IMG/VR virus record: IMGVR_UViG_3300018057_000043
Location: 1 to 22,782 of that record
Direction: 5' to 3' (one strand)
Length of the DNA stretch: 22,782 nucleotides
Source of the DNA: a virus
Below are positions 3,732 through 18,430 of the stretch, in pieces. The position numbers were made by a program, and so were the translations under genes. How positions within the stretch are numbered: position 1 is the stretch's first letter; each line of letters starts with the position of its first letter. The notes beneath the pieces were generated by a model. That model ran no database searches. It saw only the letters and a program-made list of their open reading frames with translations, and had not been told where the DNA came from.

Positions 3732-3796
3732 AGTACTGCAACGACAATCCGGCCTGTAAGGAAGGCGCGGCAAACTGGAAAGAGAAAAGTCAATGA
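3608..3796 (+). CDS. Small zinc-finger protein, 62 aa
   Basis: GGAGG at 3598-3602 is 5 bases before GTG 3608. The product has MWKCDICRAERPD near the N-terminus and NVKYCNDNPAC near the C-terminus, a two-part CxxC/Cx5C zinc finger that I associate with small phage proteins of unknown role. The same frame stays open upstream to 3506 and reads like protein (for example NQFNTDTVEPGNKPAPESLE), but has no usable start codon there. The stop overlaps the next start (ATGA at 3793-3796). Confidence 0.7.
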   Translation: MREWMWKCDICRAERPDVFISVHKLDIGPKEFPPGTMVRNVKYCNDNPACKEGAANWKEKSQ

Positions 3797-3960
3797 GCGC
3801 CGCCAAACAATTCGCCCTCGAATCTCTTTCGAGCGCCGAACTGGATGCACGTGCGGCGGCGTCCGTCACGTCCCTACGGAGTCGGCACCAAGTCGTACAA
3901 CGGCTCGGCGGAAAAACGCGAGATGGATCGGCAGAGAGAGCTGGCCACGGCGAAGTATGA
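3793..3960 (+). CDS. Small hypothetical protein, 55 aa
   Basis: ATG 3793 overlaps the previous stop and follows a purine-rich GGAAAGAGAAAAG stretch. The first 25 residues (MSAAKQFALESLSSAELDAR) look like an amphipathic helix; the rest is arginine- and serine-rich and shares its DNA with the next gene in another frame. It may be the true N-terminus of that gene separated by a frameshift, or a short coupling frame. Confidence 0.35.
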   Translation: MSAAKQFALESLSSAELDARAAASVTSLRSRHQVVQRLGGKTRDGSAERAGHGEV

Positions 3961-4150
3961 AGCTCTGGGCTATGAGCCTTACGACGCTCCCCTGCTCTGC
4001 CACTGTCCGCAACGCGAGCACCCGCACGAACTCAGCGTGCACGCCCTGATTCGGCATGAGTGGTGGAAGCGCGAACTGCGGGACAAATGGCCCTGGTCGT
4101 TGATGGCTTCGACGCGGGAGGAGCCGAGCACGGAAAGGAAGGCGGCGTGA
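3845..4150 (+). CDS. Small hypothetical protein, up to 101 aa
   Basis: The best supported part is from ATG 3923 on: a helix, then APLLCHCPQREHPHELSVH, a His/Cys-rich motif that may bind zinc, then a Trp-rich helix. ATG 3845 has no clear ribosome site. The last 16 codons are encoded by the first copy of the 4.1-4.7 kb repeat, so the C-terminus (MASTREEPSTERKAA) looks added on. The stop overlaps ATG 4150 of the next gene. Confidence 0.55.
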   Translation: MHVRRRPSRPYGVGTKSYNGSAEKREMDRQRELATAKYEALGYEPYDAPLLCHCPQREHPHELSVHALIRHEWWKRELRDKWPWSLMASTREEPSTERKAA

Positions 4151-4155
4151 TGGCG
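4101..4155 (+). repeat. Gene-start repeat, copy 1
   Basis: First of three copies. The 33-base core is 4118-4150 and is identical to copy 2. With flank it matches copy 3 at 50 of 55 positions. It carries a strong purine-rich ribosome site (GGAAAGGAAGG), a reading frame from ATG 4103 to TGA 4150 encoding MASTREEPSTERKAA, and the ATG (4150) of the next gene. Here the short frame is fused in frame to the gene upstream. Confidence 0.9.
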
Positions 4156-4401
4156 CACGAATGTGAAACGTGCGGACTTTGGTGTTGCTGCGATGGCGAT
4201 GACACCGGCGGATTGCCACAGCCGCGCGATTGTCCACATTTGATCCGACATATGGAGGAACCGGACGATGAAGAATTGTCGGAGTGCCCGCGATGTGAAG
4301 GAACCGTAATTTATAACCTTCGGGCCTGCGCAATCTGCGGCGGAGACGGCTGGATTTCCGAACATTCGCTGCTGAAGGATGAGCCTGATGGAGTCGCGTG
4401 A
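4150..4401 (+). CDS. Zinc-finger protein, 83 aa
   Basis: The start is set by repeat copy 1, with GGAAGG 7 bases before ATG 4150. The product is Cys-rich: CETCGLWCCC at the N-terminus, and a second cluster CPRCEG...CAICGGDG resembling the CxxCxG repeats of DnaJ-type zinc domains. Between them is an acidic linker. A role in binding nucleic acid or protein is likely, but the family is not recognised. The 3' end runs 14 bases into the short frame that opens repeat copy 2. Confidence 0.65.
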   Translation: MAHECETCGLWCCCDGDDTGGLPQPRDCPHLIRHMEEPDDEELSECPRCEGTVIYNLRACAICGGDGWISEHSLLKDEPDGVA

Positions 4402-4438
4402 AATCGAGGAGCCGAGCACGGAAAGGAAGGCGGCGTGA
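4388..4438 (+). repeat. Gene-start repeat, copy 2
   Basis: The core at 4406-4438 is identical base for base to the copy 1 core. A short frame runs from ATG 4388 to TGA 4436-4438 and encodes MESREIEEPSTERKAA. The GTG start of the next gene (4435) lies inside the repeat, 4 bases after GGAAGG. Confidence 0.9.
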
Positions 4439-4647
4439 GCGGCCATCAGGTTACGACGCAGCGGCAGATCAGTCAGGAACTTTTGCGCGGGCAGATCGAG
4501 CGCGAGATCGACGCGGAGTATACAGCGTGGCAGAAAAATTGGGAGCGCGGTCATCGCGGCATAAAACCGACTCCGAATTTGAAGTGGTCATGGTACCGGA
4601 GTCGGTTGGTTCGGGAAATTTGCGACCGGCGTGCGGGGATTCGCTGA
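4435..4647 (+). CDS. Small helical protein, 70 aa
   Basis: GTG 4435 overlaps the TGA of the repeat-encoded short frame, and the ribosome site comes from the repeat. The protein is a charged, mostly helical polypeptide (ISQELLRGQIEREIDAEYTA) with a Trp-rich basic second half. No signal peptide or metal motif is visible and no family is recognised. Its TGA overlaps the ATG that opens copy 3 of the repeat. Confidence 0.55.
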   Translation: MSGHQVTTQRQISQELLRGQIEREIDAEYTAWQKNWERGHRGIKPTPNLKWSWYRSRLVREICDRRAGIR

Positions 4648-4699
4648 TGGCTTCCAAGCGCGAGGAGCTGAGCACGGAAAGGAAGGCGGCATGATGGCG
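4645..4699 (+). repeat. Gene-start repeat, copy 3
   Basis: The core at 4662-4694 matches copies 1 and 2 at 31 of 33 positions. It encodes a short frame from ATG 4647 to TGA 4694 (MASKREELSTERKAA). This ATG overlaps the stop of the gene before it, and its stop overlaps the ATG (4694) of the gene after it. Confidence 0.9.
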
Positions 4700-5017
4700 A
4701 ATCGCAGGCTTTGGTGGGCAAGTCTTTCTTCTGCTTCTCCGCGGTATAACGACTGGTTTTCGATTCTCGGCTCGAACGATGTGCCGCTGCTACATCCCGG
4801 ATCGGGCGAAACGGAATTGATCGGCGAAGGCAAGCACGAAGTTTACTTGCTCGATCTTTCGGCGCTCACCGAGCAGCAGATGGATCGACTGGTCGCATTC
4901 GTCGCGAAGAAATTCCGCGCCACGCCACAAGAAGTACGCGACGGGATCATGCGCGAAGGATTTCCCGTTAGAGCGGCGGACGTGTACATCTGCTTCGACC
5001 TGAGGACGTTCGTCTGA
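4694..5017 (+). CDS. Conserved-looking small phage protein, 107 aa
   Basis: GGAAGG in repeat copy 3 lies 7 bases before ATG 4694; ATG 4691 would add one Met. The second half has a regular alpha/beta pattern: EVYLLDLSALTEQQMDRLVA, then a helix, then PVRAADVYICFDLRTFV. That spacing looks like a compact fold. I have a weak memory of similar unnamed phage proteins. Function unknown. The stop overlaps the next start (TGATG). Confidence 0.65.
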   Translation: MANRRLWWASLSSASPRYNDWFSILGSNDVPLLHPGSGETELIGEGKHEVYLLDLSALTEQQMDRLVAFVAKKFRATPQEVRDGIMREGFPVRAADVYICFDLRTFV

Positions 5018-5271
5018 TGGAAAGCAAAGAAATCTTCGAGGCCTTCACTTCGCTGAAATGCGCGGGCTGCGGTGGAGTGAAACGCCGCCATAACGCCTTC
5101 TGCACCTGGTGCTATCGCGAGCTGCCGGCCGCGCTCAAGAGTTCGCTGTGGAAGCGCTTCGGCTCCGGCTTCGAGGAAGCGTACCAGGCTTCGTTGAGCT
5201 GGTTTCGCCTGCATCCGTTTCAGGGCGAGCATCGCGCGAAACAGAAGGGTTTGTGGGAGGACGCGTCATGA
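5017..5271 (+). CDS. Zinc-finger protein, 84 aa
   Basis: The N-terminal half has CAGCGG and CTWC about 15 residues apart, a classic small zinc ribbon. The rest is a helical, aromatic-rich segment (LPAALKSSLWKRFGSGFEEA). ATG 5017 overlaps the preceding stop. Similar phage proteins of unknown function exist in my memory. The stop overlaps ATG 5268. Confidence 0.7.
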   Translation: MESKEIFEAFTSLKCAGCGGVKRRHNAFCTWCYRELPAALKSSLWKRFGSGFEEAYQASLSWFRLHPFQGEHRAKQKGLWEDAS

Positions 5272-11014: not shown

Positions 11015-11272
11015 ATGTCACCCAAGAACCCTGCAGCCGTCTCACTCGGGCGCAAAGGCGGAGAGGCCCGCGCGAAGAATCTCACCCCGCAACAGCGCAG
11101 CGACGCCGCTCGAAAGGCTGTTGAGGCTCGCTGGGCAAAGATGGATAAAGCCTTGGATAAACTGGAAAAGCAAACCACTCGGACAGAGGCGACGATCAAC
11201 GAACTGGTGAGGCTCAACCGCGCCAACCGCCGAAAGGCGGCTGGGAGGAAGAAAGTGAAGGCTGGAAAATGA
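11015..11272 (+). CDS. Small basic protein of the RKGGxARAxxLTPxQR type, 85 aa
   Basis: The N-terminal motif NPAAVSLGRKGGEARAKNLT and then RSDAARKAVEARWAKM is a widespread small bacterial and phage sequence of unknown role, seen from memory. Next is a coiled-coil-like middle and a Lys/Arg-rich tail. ATG 11015 fits the usual N-terminus better than GTG 10997; the ribosome site is weak. As the first rightward gene beyond the operator region it could be a DNA-binding regulator, but that is inference from charge and position. Confidence 0.7.
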   Translation: MSPKNPAAVSLGRKGGEARAKNLTPQQRSDAARKAVEARWAKMDKALDKLEKQTTRTEATINELVRLNRANRRKAAGRKKVKAGK

Positions 11273-11355
11273 AACACAGCCCTGAACCACTCTCGCCACT
11301 TCCCTCTCGGACTCCACCCGCAGGACCATACTCTCCGGGAGGCTTACCCCTATGA
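11269..11355 (+). CDS. Proline-rich 28-aa reading frame
   Basis: ATG 11269 overlaps the previous stop and TGA 11353-11355 overlaps the next start, both as ATGA. Nine of its 28 residues are proline (for example PEPLSPLPSRTPPAGP). It may only keep ribosomes moving between genes, or be a real peptide. Confidence 0.4.
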   Translation: MKHSPEPLSPLPSRTPPAGPYSPGGLPL

Positions 11356-11597
11356 AACTCGGCGAGTCGATTCAAACCTACAACCCCACCCTGGCTGTGA
11401 GGCGCGAGTATGGCACCTTTCAGGTCAAGACACCGGGCGGCGAAGAACTGTTCATCACCTGCAAGCCGGGCGAACCGGTCGGCATCGAATGGCCCGACAA
11501 CACCGGCAACAAACTTCCCTTCGTGGTGACCAAGATCAGCGAGCCGCTGGCCCTGACCACGATGGAGCACGTCGCGCCGATCCGCGCAGCGGGATAG
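11352..11597 (+). CDS. Small beta-rich protein, 81 aa
   Basis: GGGAGG lies 9 bases before ATG 11352. The sequence alternates short strands and turns (REYGTFQVKTPGGEELFITC; GIEWPDNTGNKLPFVVTKI), like a small all-beta domain. No signal peptide, no metal motif and no recognised family. The gene after it is separated by 127 bases, so this may end a transcription unit. Confidence 0.6.
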   Translation: MKLGESIQTYNPTLAVRREYGTFQVKTPGGEELFITCKPGEPVGIEWPDNTGNKLPFVVTKISEPLALTTMEHVAPIRAAG

Positions 11598-11724
11598 ACC
11601 CAGCCCAGCGCAGTTCTTTTTTACACAACTCTCGCGAGGACCTCAGCGACTGAGGGCAGGGACCGCGGTGTGTCCTCGCTCCACGTCCGCGCTTCGTAGA
11701 CCATAGGGTACAATTCCCTGCATC
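11598..11724 (+). other. Intergenic stretch with a weak -10-like box
   Basis: No gene is seen. TACAAT at 11709-11714 resembles a -10 box, but no matching -35 is present. If used, transcription would begin almost at the next ATG. Small inverted repeats (CTCAG/CTGAG near 11642) are too weak to call. Confidence 0.3.
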
Positions 11725-11943
11725 ATGGCCTCGGCTCCCTTCTTCCTCTGCGCGGACTGCGGCTCCGATAACTTCCTGCTCACCCCGGAGCGCGGCCCGC
11801 GCGGCGACTGGTTCGTGATCTGCAAAACCTGCGTCACCTGCTACGAACTCTGGCCCAACGGCTCGATCCGCCGTACCCGCGCGGGCGTCCATCCTTCCGA
11901 AATCACGCACGCCGTCCGCGCCTTGAGCGCCACCGAGACCTGA
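11725..11943 (+). CDS. Zinc-ribbon protein, 72 aa
   Basis: CADCGSDNF and CKTCVTCYEL about 24 residues apart form a standard zinc ribbon with a beta hairpin between. A short basic C-terminal part follows. The ribosome site is not obvious, which would fit a leaderless or short-leader transcript. Function unknown; such ribbons often bind nucleic acid or other proteins. Confidence 0.65.
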   Translation: MASAPFFLCADCGSDNFLLTPERGPRGDWFVICKTCVTCYELWPNGSIRRTRAGVHPSEITHAVRALSATET

Positions 11944-15686: not shown

Positions 15687-16213
15687 TGGGTGGAAAAGGA
15701 TCCGGCGGCCGCAATCGGAAGACGACGGCGCAGAAGAAAGCCGAAGGAAACCGCGGGAAGCGCCGGCTCAATCAAAACGAGCCGCCGACGCTGCCGGGCG
15801 AGCCAGCGATGCCTGCTTTCGTCGCCAAAGACATCGCGGTGCGGCAGGTCTGGAAGGAATTGGTTGCGGTCCTCGCCGATTATGGCGTGCTGCGCAAGAC
15901 CGACGCGATCGCGATCGGCACGCTGTGCTCGAACTATGTGCTCTTCGCCCAAGCCGATGCCTCGGTTCGTAAGCACGGGCACGTCATCGTCACGGAACTC
16001 GACCAGGAAACCGGAGTCGCTGTCCTCAAAACCAATCCTTCGTTCAGGGTCCGCAGTGACGCATTGAAGCAACTGCGCGCCGGCTGGCAGGCCTTTGGAC
16101 TGGATCCGCGATCGGCGGCAGGCATTCAGCTTCCCGACAATCCGGACAAGCCCAAGACCGGGCTCGATCTGATCAAGTTGGCAAAAAGCGCGAAGGACGA
16201 GATCGTTCACTGA
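15686..16213 (+). CDS. terS: Terminase small subunit, P27 family
   Basis: The 175-aa protein has a basic, flexible N-terminus (MGGKGSGGRNRKTTAQKKAE and a GN-x-G-KR motif) typical of P27-type small terminases, then a helical core (WKELVAVLADYGVLRKTDAI) and a central helical domain. The NPSFRVRSDALKQLRAGWQA segment followed by FGLDPRS is a hallmark of the family. Small terminases bind the packaging site and feed DNA to the large subunit. The gene overlaps both neighbours by one base, consistent with a coupled packaging operon. Confidence 0.93.
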   Translation: MGGKGSGGRNRKTTAQKKAEGNRGKRRLNQNEPPTLPGEPAMPAFVAKDIAVRQVWKELVAVLADYGVLRKTDAIAIGTLCSNYVLFAQADASVRKHGHVIVTELDQETGVAVLKTNPSFRVRSDALKQLRAGWQAFGLDPRSAAGIQLPDNPDKPKTGLDLIKLAKSAKDEIVH

Positions 16214-17385
16214 TGATTCAGCACGAAACCAAATGGAAAAGCAGCGCGGCGCAGTCTCTGCTGGCGGAGAGCTGCAGCCGGATCCCGACCGTCGGGCGCT
16301 ACGTGCTCGACGTGCTCACCGGAAACGTGCTCACGGGTCGATTAGTCTTCCTGGCAGTCGAGCGCTTCCTCCATGACCTGGAGCGGGCGCACAACCGCGA
16401 TGCATCGTTCCCTTTTTTCTTTGACCAGGGTTCGGCGGTTGCGATCATCAAGTACTTCCGCGATCTCTGCCCGTTCAGTCTCGTCGCCTTTCAGCAGTTC
16501 GCGGTGAGCAATCTATTCGGCTGGAAGAAAATGGGCGTGGAGTGCTCGGTGCATCCCACGGGCCATCGCCGCTTTCAAACCGCGTATATCGAAATGGGAA
16601 AAGGCTCGGGCAAGACGCCGCTGGTCGCCGGCATTTCGACCTATGGCGTCTGCGCCGATGACGAGCCGAGTGCAGAGGTCTACATCGCAGCTCCCTCGAA
16701 GGACCAGGCCGCGATCTGCTTTCGCGATGCAGTGCGCATCGTCGATGAGAGTCCCGAGCTGGCGCGCATCTTCAAGAAGCATGGCTGCTCCGGCAAGATG
16801 CTCTCCGGGAATCTTTCCTTCGGCACCTCGTTCATGCGGCCGATTTCCGCCGAGCACAAAACGCTCGACGGTCCCCGTCCGCACATGATCGTCGCCGACG
16901 AGCTTCACGAGCACCACACGACTCTGGTTCTCGATAAACTCACCGCCGGCTTCAAAGCGCGGCATCAGCCTCTGGCCCTCGAAATCACGAACTCCGGTTG
17001 GGACCGGGAGACGATCTGCTGGTATCACCACGACTATTCGCGCCAGGTGCTCGAAGGCATCATCCAGAACGAGGCCTGGTTCGCCTACGTGTGCCAGCTG
17101 GACGCCTGCGAGTCCTGCCGCGCGGCGGGCAAAGAGCAACCGACGTGCGATGACTGCGACTCCTGGCTCGACGAGCGAGTCTGGATTAAAGCGAATCCCG
17201 GTCTGGGCACGATCCTGCAGAAAAGCTATCTCGACAAGCAAGTGAAAGAGGCGCTGGAGATCCCGGCCACGCGCAATCTGAAACAGCGGCTCAACTTCTG
17301 TATCTGGACGCAGTCGGAGGAGCGCTTCATTTCACCCGAAGCCTGGCGCGTGTGCGCGTGGGAAGAGGCGGGCGCCGCCGCGTGA
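16213..17385 (+). CDS. terL: Terminase large subunit, ATPase half
   Basis: The 390-aa product matches the N-terminal ATPase domain of phage large terminases. Walker A is at 129-135 (GKGSGKT); Walker B with catalytic Glu is at 226-230 (IVADE), followed by LHEHH. A CxxC-x9-CxxC zinc-like loop lies at 299-315. The protein ends right after FISPEAWRVCAW, which in intact terminases is followed within a few residues by the linker and nuclease domain. The nuclease is instead encoded 352 bases further on, after a separate gene. The TGA at 17383 overlaps the GTG of that gene. No frameshift restores a single protein. Confidence 0.93.
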   Translation: MIQHETKWKSSAAQSLLAESCSRIPTVGRYVLDVLTGNVLTGRLVFLAVERFLHDLERAHNRDASFPFFFDQGSAVAIIKYFRDLCPFSLVAFQQFAVSNLFGWKKMGVECSVHPTGHRRFQTAYIEMGKGSGKTPLVAGISTYGVCADDEPSAEVYIAAPSKDQAAICFRDAVRIVDESPELARIFKKHGCSGKMLSGNLSFGTSFMRPISAEHKTLDGPRPHMIVADELHEHHTTLVLDKLTAGFKARHQPLALEITNSGWDRETICWYHHDYSRQVLEGIIQNEAWFAYVCQLDACESCRAAGKEQPTCDDCDSWLDERVWIKANPGLGTILQKSYLDKQVKEALEIPATRNLKQRLNFCIWTQSEERFISPEAWRVCAWEEAGAAA

Positions 17386-17738
17386 GAGTTTTCTATTTCG
17401 GCTGTATCGACGTGGCTGGCCATTACATGCATGCGAGTTCACCGCCTCGTAATCTGGAAGAGCGGCGAGCAGTCAGTCAACTCACGCACAGTAACCCGTG
17501 GGGACTCAATATCGATGGAGGTCTCTGTCCTCGACGCGGGGGTGCGCTCGTCCATCACAAAGATGGATGGACGGCGCTGGCCTTCGAGGATTTCACCGTA
17601 GATTCGCGCCCTGGATCGAACAGCGTTTTTCTCGCTGAGGGCACTTACGACTTTGACGAAATGGCTCGAATCGCTGAGGAGTATTTCCCAGCGGTATGGG
17701 CTCGATGCGGCCGGGGATTGATCCCGGCTAAGGTCTAG
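17382..17738 (+). CDS. Gene inserted between the two terminase halves, 118 aa
   Basis: GTG 17382 overlaps the ATPase stop (GTGA) and TAG 17738 overlaps the GTG of the nuclease half. The protein starts MRVFYFGCIDVAGHYMHASS, has a central Gly/Arg/His part and ends in a helix-rich segment (FLAEGTYDFDEMARIAEEYF). I dimly recall unnamed phage proteins opening with FYFGC...GHY, but no function is known. There is no HNH, LAGLIDADG, GIY-YIG or intein motif, so it is not a known homing element. Base composition appears less GC-rich than its neighbours, hinting at separate origin. Confidence 0.75.
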   Translation: MRVFYFGCIDVAGHYMHASSPPRNLEERRAVSQLTHSNPWGLNIDGGLCPRRGGALVHHKDGWTALAFEDFTVDSRPGSNSVFLAEGTYDFDEMARIAEEYFPAVWARCGRGLIPAKV

Positions 17739-18430
17739 TGAGTGCTTCGCCCTACATCGGCGATCCGGTCGCCTGGCGCCGGCACCAGATCGAAGTTCTG
17801 CGCGGCAAGATCTGCTATGGCGGGCTCGATCTCGGAGTGGTCAATGACTTCACCTGCCTCGCGCTCTATTTCCCCAAGCAGAAGGAGATGCTCAAGGACC
17901 TCCTGCTGCTCTGGTCCTGGGTTCCGGAGAATGTTGACCATCATCAACCGCTCAAGGAGCGTTTCGGCTACGAGGACTGGGTGCGCGGAGGCTTTCTGAA
18001 ACGGACGTCCGGCAACCGCACCGATTACGCCATCGTGCGCGACGACATCCTCAAGCTCGACCAGGAGTATCGCATCGAGGAACTGGCCTTCGATCCCGCG
18101 TACTCGACCCAGTTGGTGCAGGAGCTCATGGGCCACGGCGTGAACATGGTCGAGCATCGTCAAGGCACGCTCTCGATGACCTATCCCATCAAGGAATTCC
18201 AGCGCCGGATCATGGGCCGCGACTTTGCACACGGGATGAACCCGCTGTTGACCTTTATGGTCGACAACCTGGTCGTGAAATCGGACGGCAAAGGGAACCT
18301 GTGCTGCGTGAAGCCGGACAATCCCAAGTCGCCGCGCAAAATCGACGGAGCCGTGGCTTCGATTATGGCCATGGGCCGGGCTGCGGCCAATCCGGAGGCA
18401 ACGTCGAGCGGGAAAGTGTTCTTCGGATGA
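17738..18430 (+). CDS. terL: Terminase large subunit, nuclease half
   Basis: The 230-aa product is the C-terminal RNase H-like nuclease domain. YGGLDLGVVNDF puts Asp31 as the first metal ligand and Asp37 close by; FDPAYST (Asp119) and KIDGAVASIMAMGRA (Asp203) give the other conserved acids. The first 23 residues (about to LRG) match the linker that normally follows the ATPase domain, so little or nothing of the terminase is lost. GTG 17738 overlaps the TAG of the inserted gene. It should cut the concatemer at the end of packaging, acting with the separate ATPase protein. Confidence 0.92.
   Translation: MSASPYIGDPVAWRRHQIEVLRGKICYGGLDLGVVNDFTCLALYFPKQKEMLKDLLLLWSWVPENVDHHQPLKERFGYEDWVRGGFLKRTSGNRTDYAIVRDDILKLDQEYRIEELAFDPAYSTQLVQELMGHGVNMVEHRQGTLSMTYPIKEFQRRIMGRDFAHGMNPLLTFMVDNLVVKSDGKGNLCCVKPDNPKSPRKIDGAVASIMAMGRAAANPEATSSGKVFFG

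Follow-up and report, generated by a model that had tools for sequence, protein, structure and literature searches.

The duplicated 3' end of a conserved phage gene probably marks the joints between stacked small genes

Introduction

Integron gene cassettes consist of a gene and a 3' repeat and lie head to tail. The repeat, attC, is an imperfect inverted repeat that forms a hairpin. In lambdoid phages, boundary sequences are short sequences common to different phages at the joints of unrelated genes (Clark et al. 2001, on HK620, and Susskind and Botstein 1978, both as cited in the accessible part of PMC3029335). The start-associated sequences (SAS and ESAS) of cluster K mycobacteriophages have the consensus GGGATAGGAGCCC, occur in many copies per genome and are conserved by downstream gene family; they lie directly ahead of unrelated small-gene starts and are linked to translation initiation (PMC3203893, accessible text). 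For genes that overlap as ATGA or TGATG, coupling was strict in 13 of the 14 pairs tested, all from other organisms (PMC6728339, accessible text).

How phages can add genes to tightly overlapping operons and leave the translation of the adjacent genes intact is still an open question in the study of mosaicism. We describe a phage locus in which such joints appear to be still readable: a protein end and a ribosome site are duplicated, and one of the copies (copy 2) can be traced to two likely parents. The window, by which we mean the whole stretch of DNA analysed, is a linear IMG/VR viral record of 22.8 kb from a soil bacteriophage, with phage packaging genes in its right half. A comparison with 50,697 named phage records gave no near relative. 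In named phages we found no DNA match to the whole window or to the repeat, and no protein match to gene 1, the gene that ends in the first copy of the repeat.

Results

Three repeat copies at overlapping gene ends and starts

A sequence-only reading of the window had reported three similar cores, each with a ribosome site and a short frame ending in STERKAA whose stop overlaps the start of a different gene. We found the 33-base cores where that reading had placed them, at 4118-4150, 4406-4438 and 4662-4694. Copies 1 and 2 are identical (33/33) and copy 3 matches each of them at 31/33 positions. Copies 1 and 3 are similar across 59 nt (53/59). Allowing up to three mismatches, a 20-mer of the core matched the window three times, compared with a mean of 0.01 in 100 shuffles.

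The STERKAA frames, all on the + strand, run from 4103 to 4150 in copy 1 (MASTREEPSTERKAA), from 4388 to 4438 in copy 2 (MESREIEEPSTERKAA) and from 4647 to 4694 in copy 3 (MASKREELSTERKAA). Their stops overlap GTG 4147 and ATG 4150 (copy 1), GTG 4435 (copy 2) and ATG 4691 and 4694 (copy 3). Every core contains the stretch AAAGGAAGG, which forms the Shine–Dalgarno (SD) sequence of copy 1 at 4134-4142 (+); the mini-ORF tails of the window (copies 2 and 3) carry the SD motif AAGGAAGG. At all three copies the SD lies inside the upstream frame and the stop of that frame overlaps the downstream start. The SD pairing energy is −8.1 kcal/mol at each. The ribosome site and the overlapping STERKAA frame are thus confirmed for each core. 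The frame of 15–16 codons noted in the sequence-only reading stands by itself at copies 2 and 3, which are free frames of 16 and 15 codons; at copy 1 it instead terminates a longer open frame of 101 codons (3845-4150), which has homologues elsewhere. The mini-ORF of copy 2 starts 14 nt inside the end of the preceding gene. That of copy 3 overlaps the preceding stop as TGATG: an out-of-frame TGA (4645-4647) is the stop of the gene called g3 below, and ATG 4647 opens the 15-codon frame that ends at 4694.

The repeat as the 3' end of a conserved gene

Gene 1 (3793-4150, +) is a conserved small phage gene whose product has the motif CxCPQRxxPHELSxH and the C-terminus WPWSL..REEPSTERKAA. We followed it with an 18-mer scan of viral contigs, which gave two further records, and then with profile searches. 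Gene 1 or a remnant of it was present in 14 of the 20 records, one of the 14 having a remnant only. In one of these two records (L005/L018), the repeat closes a gene that is a homologue of the open frame 3845-4150. The C-terminal residues W-P-W-S-L and S-T-E-R are invariant in 7/7 aligned homologues. Because the repeat ends gene 1 homologues and the C-terminus is invariant, copy 1 (tail 4097-4150, +, with core 4118-4150 and stop TGA 4148-4150) is the native 3' end of gene 1. Judged by these alignments, the repeat belongs to a single conserved phage gene, as its 3' end, and is no free-standing start signal. The core was found at up to three mismatches in 8 of the 20 records, with more than one copy in the window only.

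The N-terminal part of gene 1 is in the frame of 3793 and the remainder in the frame of 3845-4150. In L018 the frame is continuous, and these two stretches (3793-3960 and 3845-4150) match it in different frames; gene 1 of the window thus has a frame break near 3880, which is either real or an assembly error. Gene 1 had no match in Pfam, PHROGs or NCBIfam, and its AlphaFold model is poor (mean pLDDT 61.6, about 48 in the tail).

The sequence-only reading had suggested a check of the tail frame for synonymous change. In ten gene 1 homologues, synonymous codons were indeed unusually conserved in the tail: the same-codon fraction per column was 0.77 (7 columns) versus 0.47 in the body (54 columns). 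The Mann–Whitney p-values, 0.0023 for all columns and 0.0046 for residues with 4- and 6-fold degenerate codons, count columns and not events as independent, in sequences that are related. The tail ranked top of 55 sliding windows for codon identity, and the arginine AGG inside the SD stands out. Pairing with the anti-SD averaged −7.4 kcal/mol at 14 tails versus −3.1 kcal/mol at 2000 random positions. Such constraint is as expected if the tail has a putative double role, as a C-terminus and as the ribosome site of the next gene. L018 has an identical 33-base core in spite of different gene bodies, an identity that could also be due to a recent exchange of the tail.

Part of the tail also occurs elsewhere. 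A 17-mer of it ends two unrelated gene families (L027, L032 and L035; L031), where the TERKAA stop overlaps the next start. The 13 loci with this 17-mer comprise four gene 1 tails or remnants, four other genes ending in it and five that are neither; of the nine loci without gene 1, four belong to the two unrelated families. Another set of matching stretches lacked such a gene end in 11 of 17 cases. We counted 359 RTGA overlaps between open frames (45 codons or longer, many of them not genes); 28 of these overlaps ended in AA, the commonest pair (16 loci). Since EAA* and KAA* endings are common at RTGA overlaps, KAA largely represents the ribosome site and the overlap as spelled in that frame. 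The 17-mer in two unrelated families may reflect some convergence on a strong ribosome site, or wider travel of the tail. If genes in a GC-rich phage had independently reached a near-optimal ribosome site and overlap, both these families and the frequent AA endings would follow, but the 33/33 identity of copies 1 and 2 and the 59-nt likeness of copies 1 and 3 extend far past the ribosome site. We give convergence as the origin of the repeat only the slimmest of chances.

Unrelated genes behind the tail

Gene 5 (5017-5271, +; MESKEIFEAF...) is conserved and has a weak double zinc ribbon match below the Pfam cut-off. In the seven records in which both genes were placed, the distance from the gene 1 stop to the gene 5 start was 866, 545, 440, 0, 166, 386 and 618 nt. 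As gene 5 follows gene 1 at 0 to 866 nt, the two genes flank a slot of variable content, with gene 5 on the right. The slot of the window holds three genes on the + strand. The first stacked gene, g2 (4150-4401), encodes a Cys-rich protein of 83 aa whose N-terminal 34 residues are 74% identical to a protein of phage contig L091. Searches of L091 gave neither gene 1 nor gene 5 nor the tail; there the g2 relative begins at the same codon and has no tail in front, which fits g2 having come from elsewhere. The second stacked gene, g3 (4435-4647, 70 aa), is weakly similar to an ORF that precedes a tail remnant in L022. The third gene, g4 (4691-5017), has homologues just upstream of gene 1 in L019 and L026, without a tail in front, and further downstream in L040 and L047.

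We compared 14 tails: nine native gene 1 ends and five extra or remnant tails (copies 2 and 3 of the window, a second tail in L020, and remnants in L022 and L004). They lie directly upstream of unrelated starts, as none of the 91 pairs among the 14 proteins encoded behind them was similar at E ≤ 0.1. One of these proteins is assigned to a family of phage RNA ligases (PHROG 14301, E 2e-74) and one has a weak HAD-like match. A likeness of the L020 stacked gene to g3 (E 0.013 in one search) was absent at E ≤ 0.1 in another and is not claimed. Homology is lost at the stop codon: at the 14 sites, mean pairwise identity falls from 0.71 (final 15 nt as far as the stop) to 0.26 (next 15 nt), and the window and L018 are identical at 30/30 positions up to the stop and then at 5/30.

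When the core is followed into related phages and the genes behind it are listed, as the sequence-only reading had proposed, the tail is thus seen ahead of many unrelated gene starts. That reading had also considered the contrary case, a repeat that stems from the duplication of one gene and has no link to varied starts. The first half applies, in that the repeat does derive from the end of one gene; the second does not, the link to varied starts being strong.

These findings also bear on a start-associated signal with a coding leader, either SAS-like or a leader-peptide switch, that is selected ahead of certain small genes. Such a signal would agree with tail codons conserved beyond the needs of the protein and with mini-ORFs that retain their own ribosome sites (for example GGAGG in L004, −11.6 kcal/mol). 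However, each relative has a single copy per genome, which is the end of gene 1 wherever gene 1 is present. The SAS consensus GGGATAGGAGCCC gave 0 matches in the window at up to two mismatches, the relatives of g2 (L091) and g4 (L019, L026) lack a tail in front, and RNA structure is not consistent between tails. We consider this explanation quite improbable.

Composition of the extra tail copies

Copy 2 is made of two halves. The left half (4388-4405, +) resembles the start of gene 5 (MESREI), whereas the right half (4406-4438, +) is the gene 1 tail core, identical to copy 1 at 33/33 positions. For the left half, the best of 448,706 positions outside itself was the gene 5 start of L022 (16/18 identical), and five of the six positions with at least 14/18 identities were gene 5 starts (L022, L018, L019, L026 and L044). 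Copy 2 thus looks like a gene 5 start fused to a gene 1 tail. The natural reading of this sequence is that g2 formerly abutted gene 5, and that a gene 1 tail together with g3 was joined into the head of gene 5. Copy 3 (4641-4694, +) contains the gene 1 tail from 'SLM' on.

Could the copies have arisen by plain tandem duplication of gene 1, the 5' parts having since diverged past recognition? The match of copies 1 and 3 over 59 nt would be accounted for in this way. On the other hand, g2 and g3 had no match to gene 1 in the searches made, the g2 relative sits in a phage contig without gene 1, and the left half of copy 2 matches the gene 5 start and not gene 1. A tandem duplication is therefore very unlikely.

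Extra or remnant tails in the relatives take several forms. In L004, a record without gene 1 by profile search, the tail is a 13-codon frame; a search for a parent gene of the head of this mini-ORF gave none. L022 has only a 27-codon gene 1 remnant, between another ORF and gene 5. In L020, a second, degenerate tail ends the gene behind gene 1. The tail frame lacks a usual start in L022 and in copies 2 and 3 of the repeat in G005 described below; hence the mini-ORF is not essential and the ribosome site is. No empty site for g2 or g3 was found in the records compared, so that the insertion itself is unseen.

Repeats of the same design with other sequences

A search of 15 relatives revealed repeats of the same design with other sequences, in three records in all; they lie in L004 (7222-7249 and 7479-7506), L021 (3731-4327) and L046 (2045-2217). 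Copies one small gene apart were spaced by 257, 256 and 146 nt in G001, G005 and G013, respectively. In G001, the neighbouring genes G001_A and G001_B share their final 28 nt (AKQKKEAK*). In G013, RKGMEEQR* (27 nt) ends two unrelated proteins. In G005, a 43-nt gene end recurs, and there is a partial third copy. The proteins behind paired copies are 2–10% identical (ungapped). Two other kinds of repeat were seen in relatives: a long 9-nt repeat array in L046 (4787-5200; reported as 34 shifted copies), which may be repetitive coding sequence, and a perfect 38-nt tandem duplication in L025 (2046-2121) with a ribosome site and an ATGA start inside it. In the window, positions 11015-11943 contain a G001_A-like gene, then another gene and then a weak relative of G001_C; this region may be a second variable slot between conserved genes.

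We scanned 34 segments (596 kb) with 92 strand-specific repeat pairs and counted the pairs that end −2 to +6 nt from an RTGA overlap with an SD and in which the frames behind both copies stay open for 30 codons. There were six such pairs in four records (G000 three times, G001, G005 and G013), versus a mean of 0.28 under random relocation, which reached six in 0/5000 runs. With the window left out, 3/86 pairs remained (null 0.245; reached in 40/20,000 runs). The boundary rule was set with the cases already in view, and the window served as the query; both 6/92 and 3/86 carry that bias. When any RTGA inside the repeat was accepted, that is, without the boundary condition, 6/92 pairs were counted against a null of 2.58 (74/2000 runs), a weak excess, and 1/70 in the control. 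Under the full rule, the controls gave 0/70 pairs in 24 unrelated viral loci, 0/0 in lambda, 0/2 in HK620 and 0/8 in most of Adephagia, whose SAS repeats did register as repeats in the scan.

These repeats bear on whether the tail of 33–59 bp is a dedicated recombination site, at which cassettes of a gene plus a tail are inserted, deleted or swapped by homologous recombination or by a site-specific enzyme. Tail copies do flank g2 (at 288 nt) and g3 (at 256 nt), the spacings in G001, G005 and G013 likewise correspond to one gene, and tails are common to phages with unrelated genes behind them. Yet the repeat sequences vary between phages, and the tails have no consistent hairpin signal (fold z of 0.19, −2.00, 0.65, −0.05 and 1.08). 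An attC-like fold was not found: with RNA parameters, single-strand folds were near the shuffled level in four of five tails, copy 2 (z −2.00) being the fifth. Exchange confined to the tail also leaves unexplained why copy 2 has a left half derived from another gene. Finally, since relatives carry one tail per genome, recombination between the tails of two genomes would swap genes and not stack them. A dedicated site is thus rather unlikely. As to the gene-exchange role proposed in the sequence-only reading, the tail does mark joints; nothing shows that it is itself the site of recombination.

Host and genome context

A gene 1 relative is present in an Acidobacteriaceae metagenome-assembled genome (L050). 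Gene 1 was found in 1/396 sampled Acidobacteriota genomes, at a locus that also has other window-like genes; the host assignment therefore hangs on this one locus. Host chromosomes were considered as a source of the repeat and rejected: the core was found in 6/396 Acidobacteriota genomes, with three mismatches every time.

In the packaging region, the gene for the terminase large subunit (16213-18430) is interrupted at one site by an insert of ≈ 350 bp. The same site has other inserts in L008 (≈ 260 bp) and L009 (≈ 1,000 bp) and is uninterrupted in L006 and L010. The window and L009 had no Rfam intron match.

Discussion

The reading that we favour is that the gene 1 tail has a dual use and that copies 2 and 3 are joints left when g2, g3 and g4 were stacked in the slot, with translation passing from gene to gene by termination–reinitiation. 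We consider it probable. Several findings count against it: no empty site for g2 or g3 turned up, the head of the L004 mini-ORF has no traced parent, some tail frames lack a usual start, the identical L018 core could stem from a recent exchange, and two unrelated gene families end in the 17-mer. The gene 1 tail would encode a C-terminus while holding the SD and overlapping the start of the following gene. Gene 1 and gene 5 would bound a slot with phage-specific content, in which the window has stacked g2, g3 and g4. Each newly joined gene would have kept an extra gene 1 tail in front of it, seen as copies 2 and 3.

The form of the joints can be understood from the overlaps. To be viable, a joint would have to retain the stop of the left gene, located in the head of the gene that formerly followed it, and the ribosome site of the right gene, located in the tail of the gene that formerly preceded it. 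Because neighbouring genes overlap, joints would leave a small head-plus-tail piece that is able to read as a mini-ORF. The observed scars appear to fit this form. Joining may have occurred by illegitimate recombination or through short homology, followed by selection.

Ribosomes that end the tail frame would stop on the next start codon, with the SD positioned for reinitiation. The anatomy (SD, stop/start overlap, −8.1 kcal/mol) agrees with the translational coupling suggested in the sequence-only reading, and it is from this anatomy that we infer coupling. 

With more hesitation, we suggest as a possible though doubtful generalization that this Acidobacteriota-associated phage group extends its arrays of small genes singly, each gene being joined behind a spare tail of its left neighbour; the tail would vary while the geometry of the joint stays constant. 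On that view a stacked gene would arrive pre-coupled, as the portable tail brings C-terminal codons, a ribosome site and a stop/start overlap. Direct repeats that end at a stop/start overlap and lie one gene apart may serve as a search criterion and reveal recently stacked genes in any phage. For annotation, frames of 13–16 codons such as those described here may be joint scars and not leader peptides.

How does the tail compare with the described systems? Integron cassettes also have a gene plus a 3' repeat in head-to-tail order; the present repeats differ in that they vary between phages. Termination–reinitiation systems likewise have ATGA, GTGA and TGATG overlaps in which the upstream gene contains an SD, whereas at copies 2 and 3 a mini-ORF scar replaces the upstream gene, and coupling at this locus is read from the sequence (compare the accessible text of PMC6728339). 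Like SAS, the tail lies directly ahead of unrelated small-gene starts. It differs from SAS as described in the accessible text of PMC3203893 in being a C-terminus, present once per relative genome and three times in the window. SAS membership was ruled out by the consensus (0 matches) and by the copy number (8/20 records, more than one copy in the window only). The resemblance to SAS as a type of signal, drawn in the sequence-only reading, has consequently to be given up: the repeat encodes protein, namely the C-terminus of one gene family, and is single-copy in relatives.

A description of duplicated gene ends as joints was not found in the literature searched, most of which lay outside subscription journals. 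The lambdoid boundary sequences come nearest. As at those sequences, homology gives way to non-homology at the tail, from 0.71 to 0.26 at 14 sites and from 30/30 to 5/30 against L018. Compared with the boundary sequences covered in the accessible part of PMC3029335, the present joint is the coding 3' end of an identifiable gene and contains the next ribosome site; the tail is duplicated within one genome, the genes are stacked and not swapped, and the reused sequence is phage-specific. On this comparison, the gene 1 tail appears to act most like a boundary sequence and is not an SAS.
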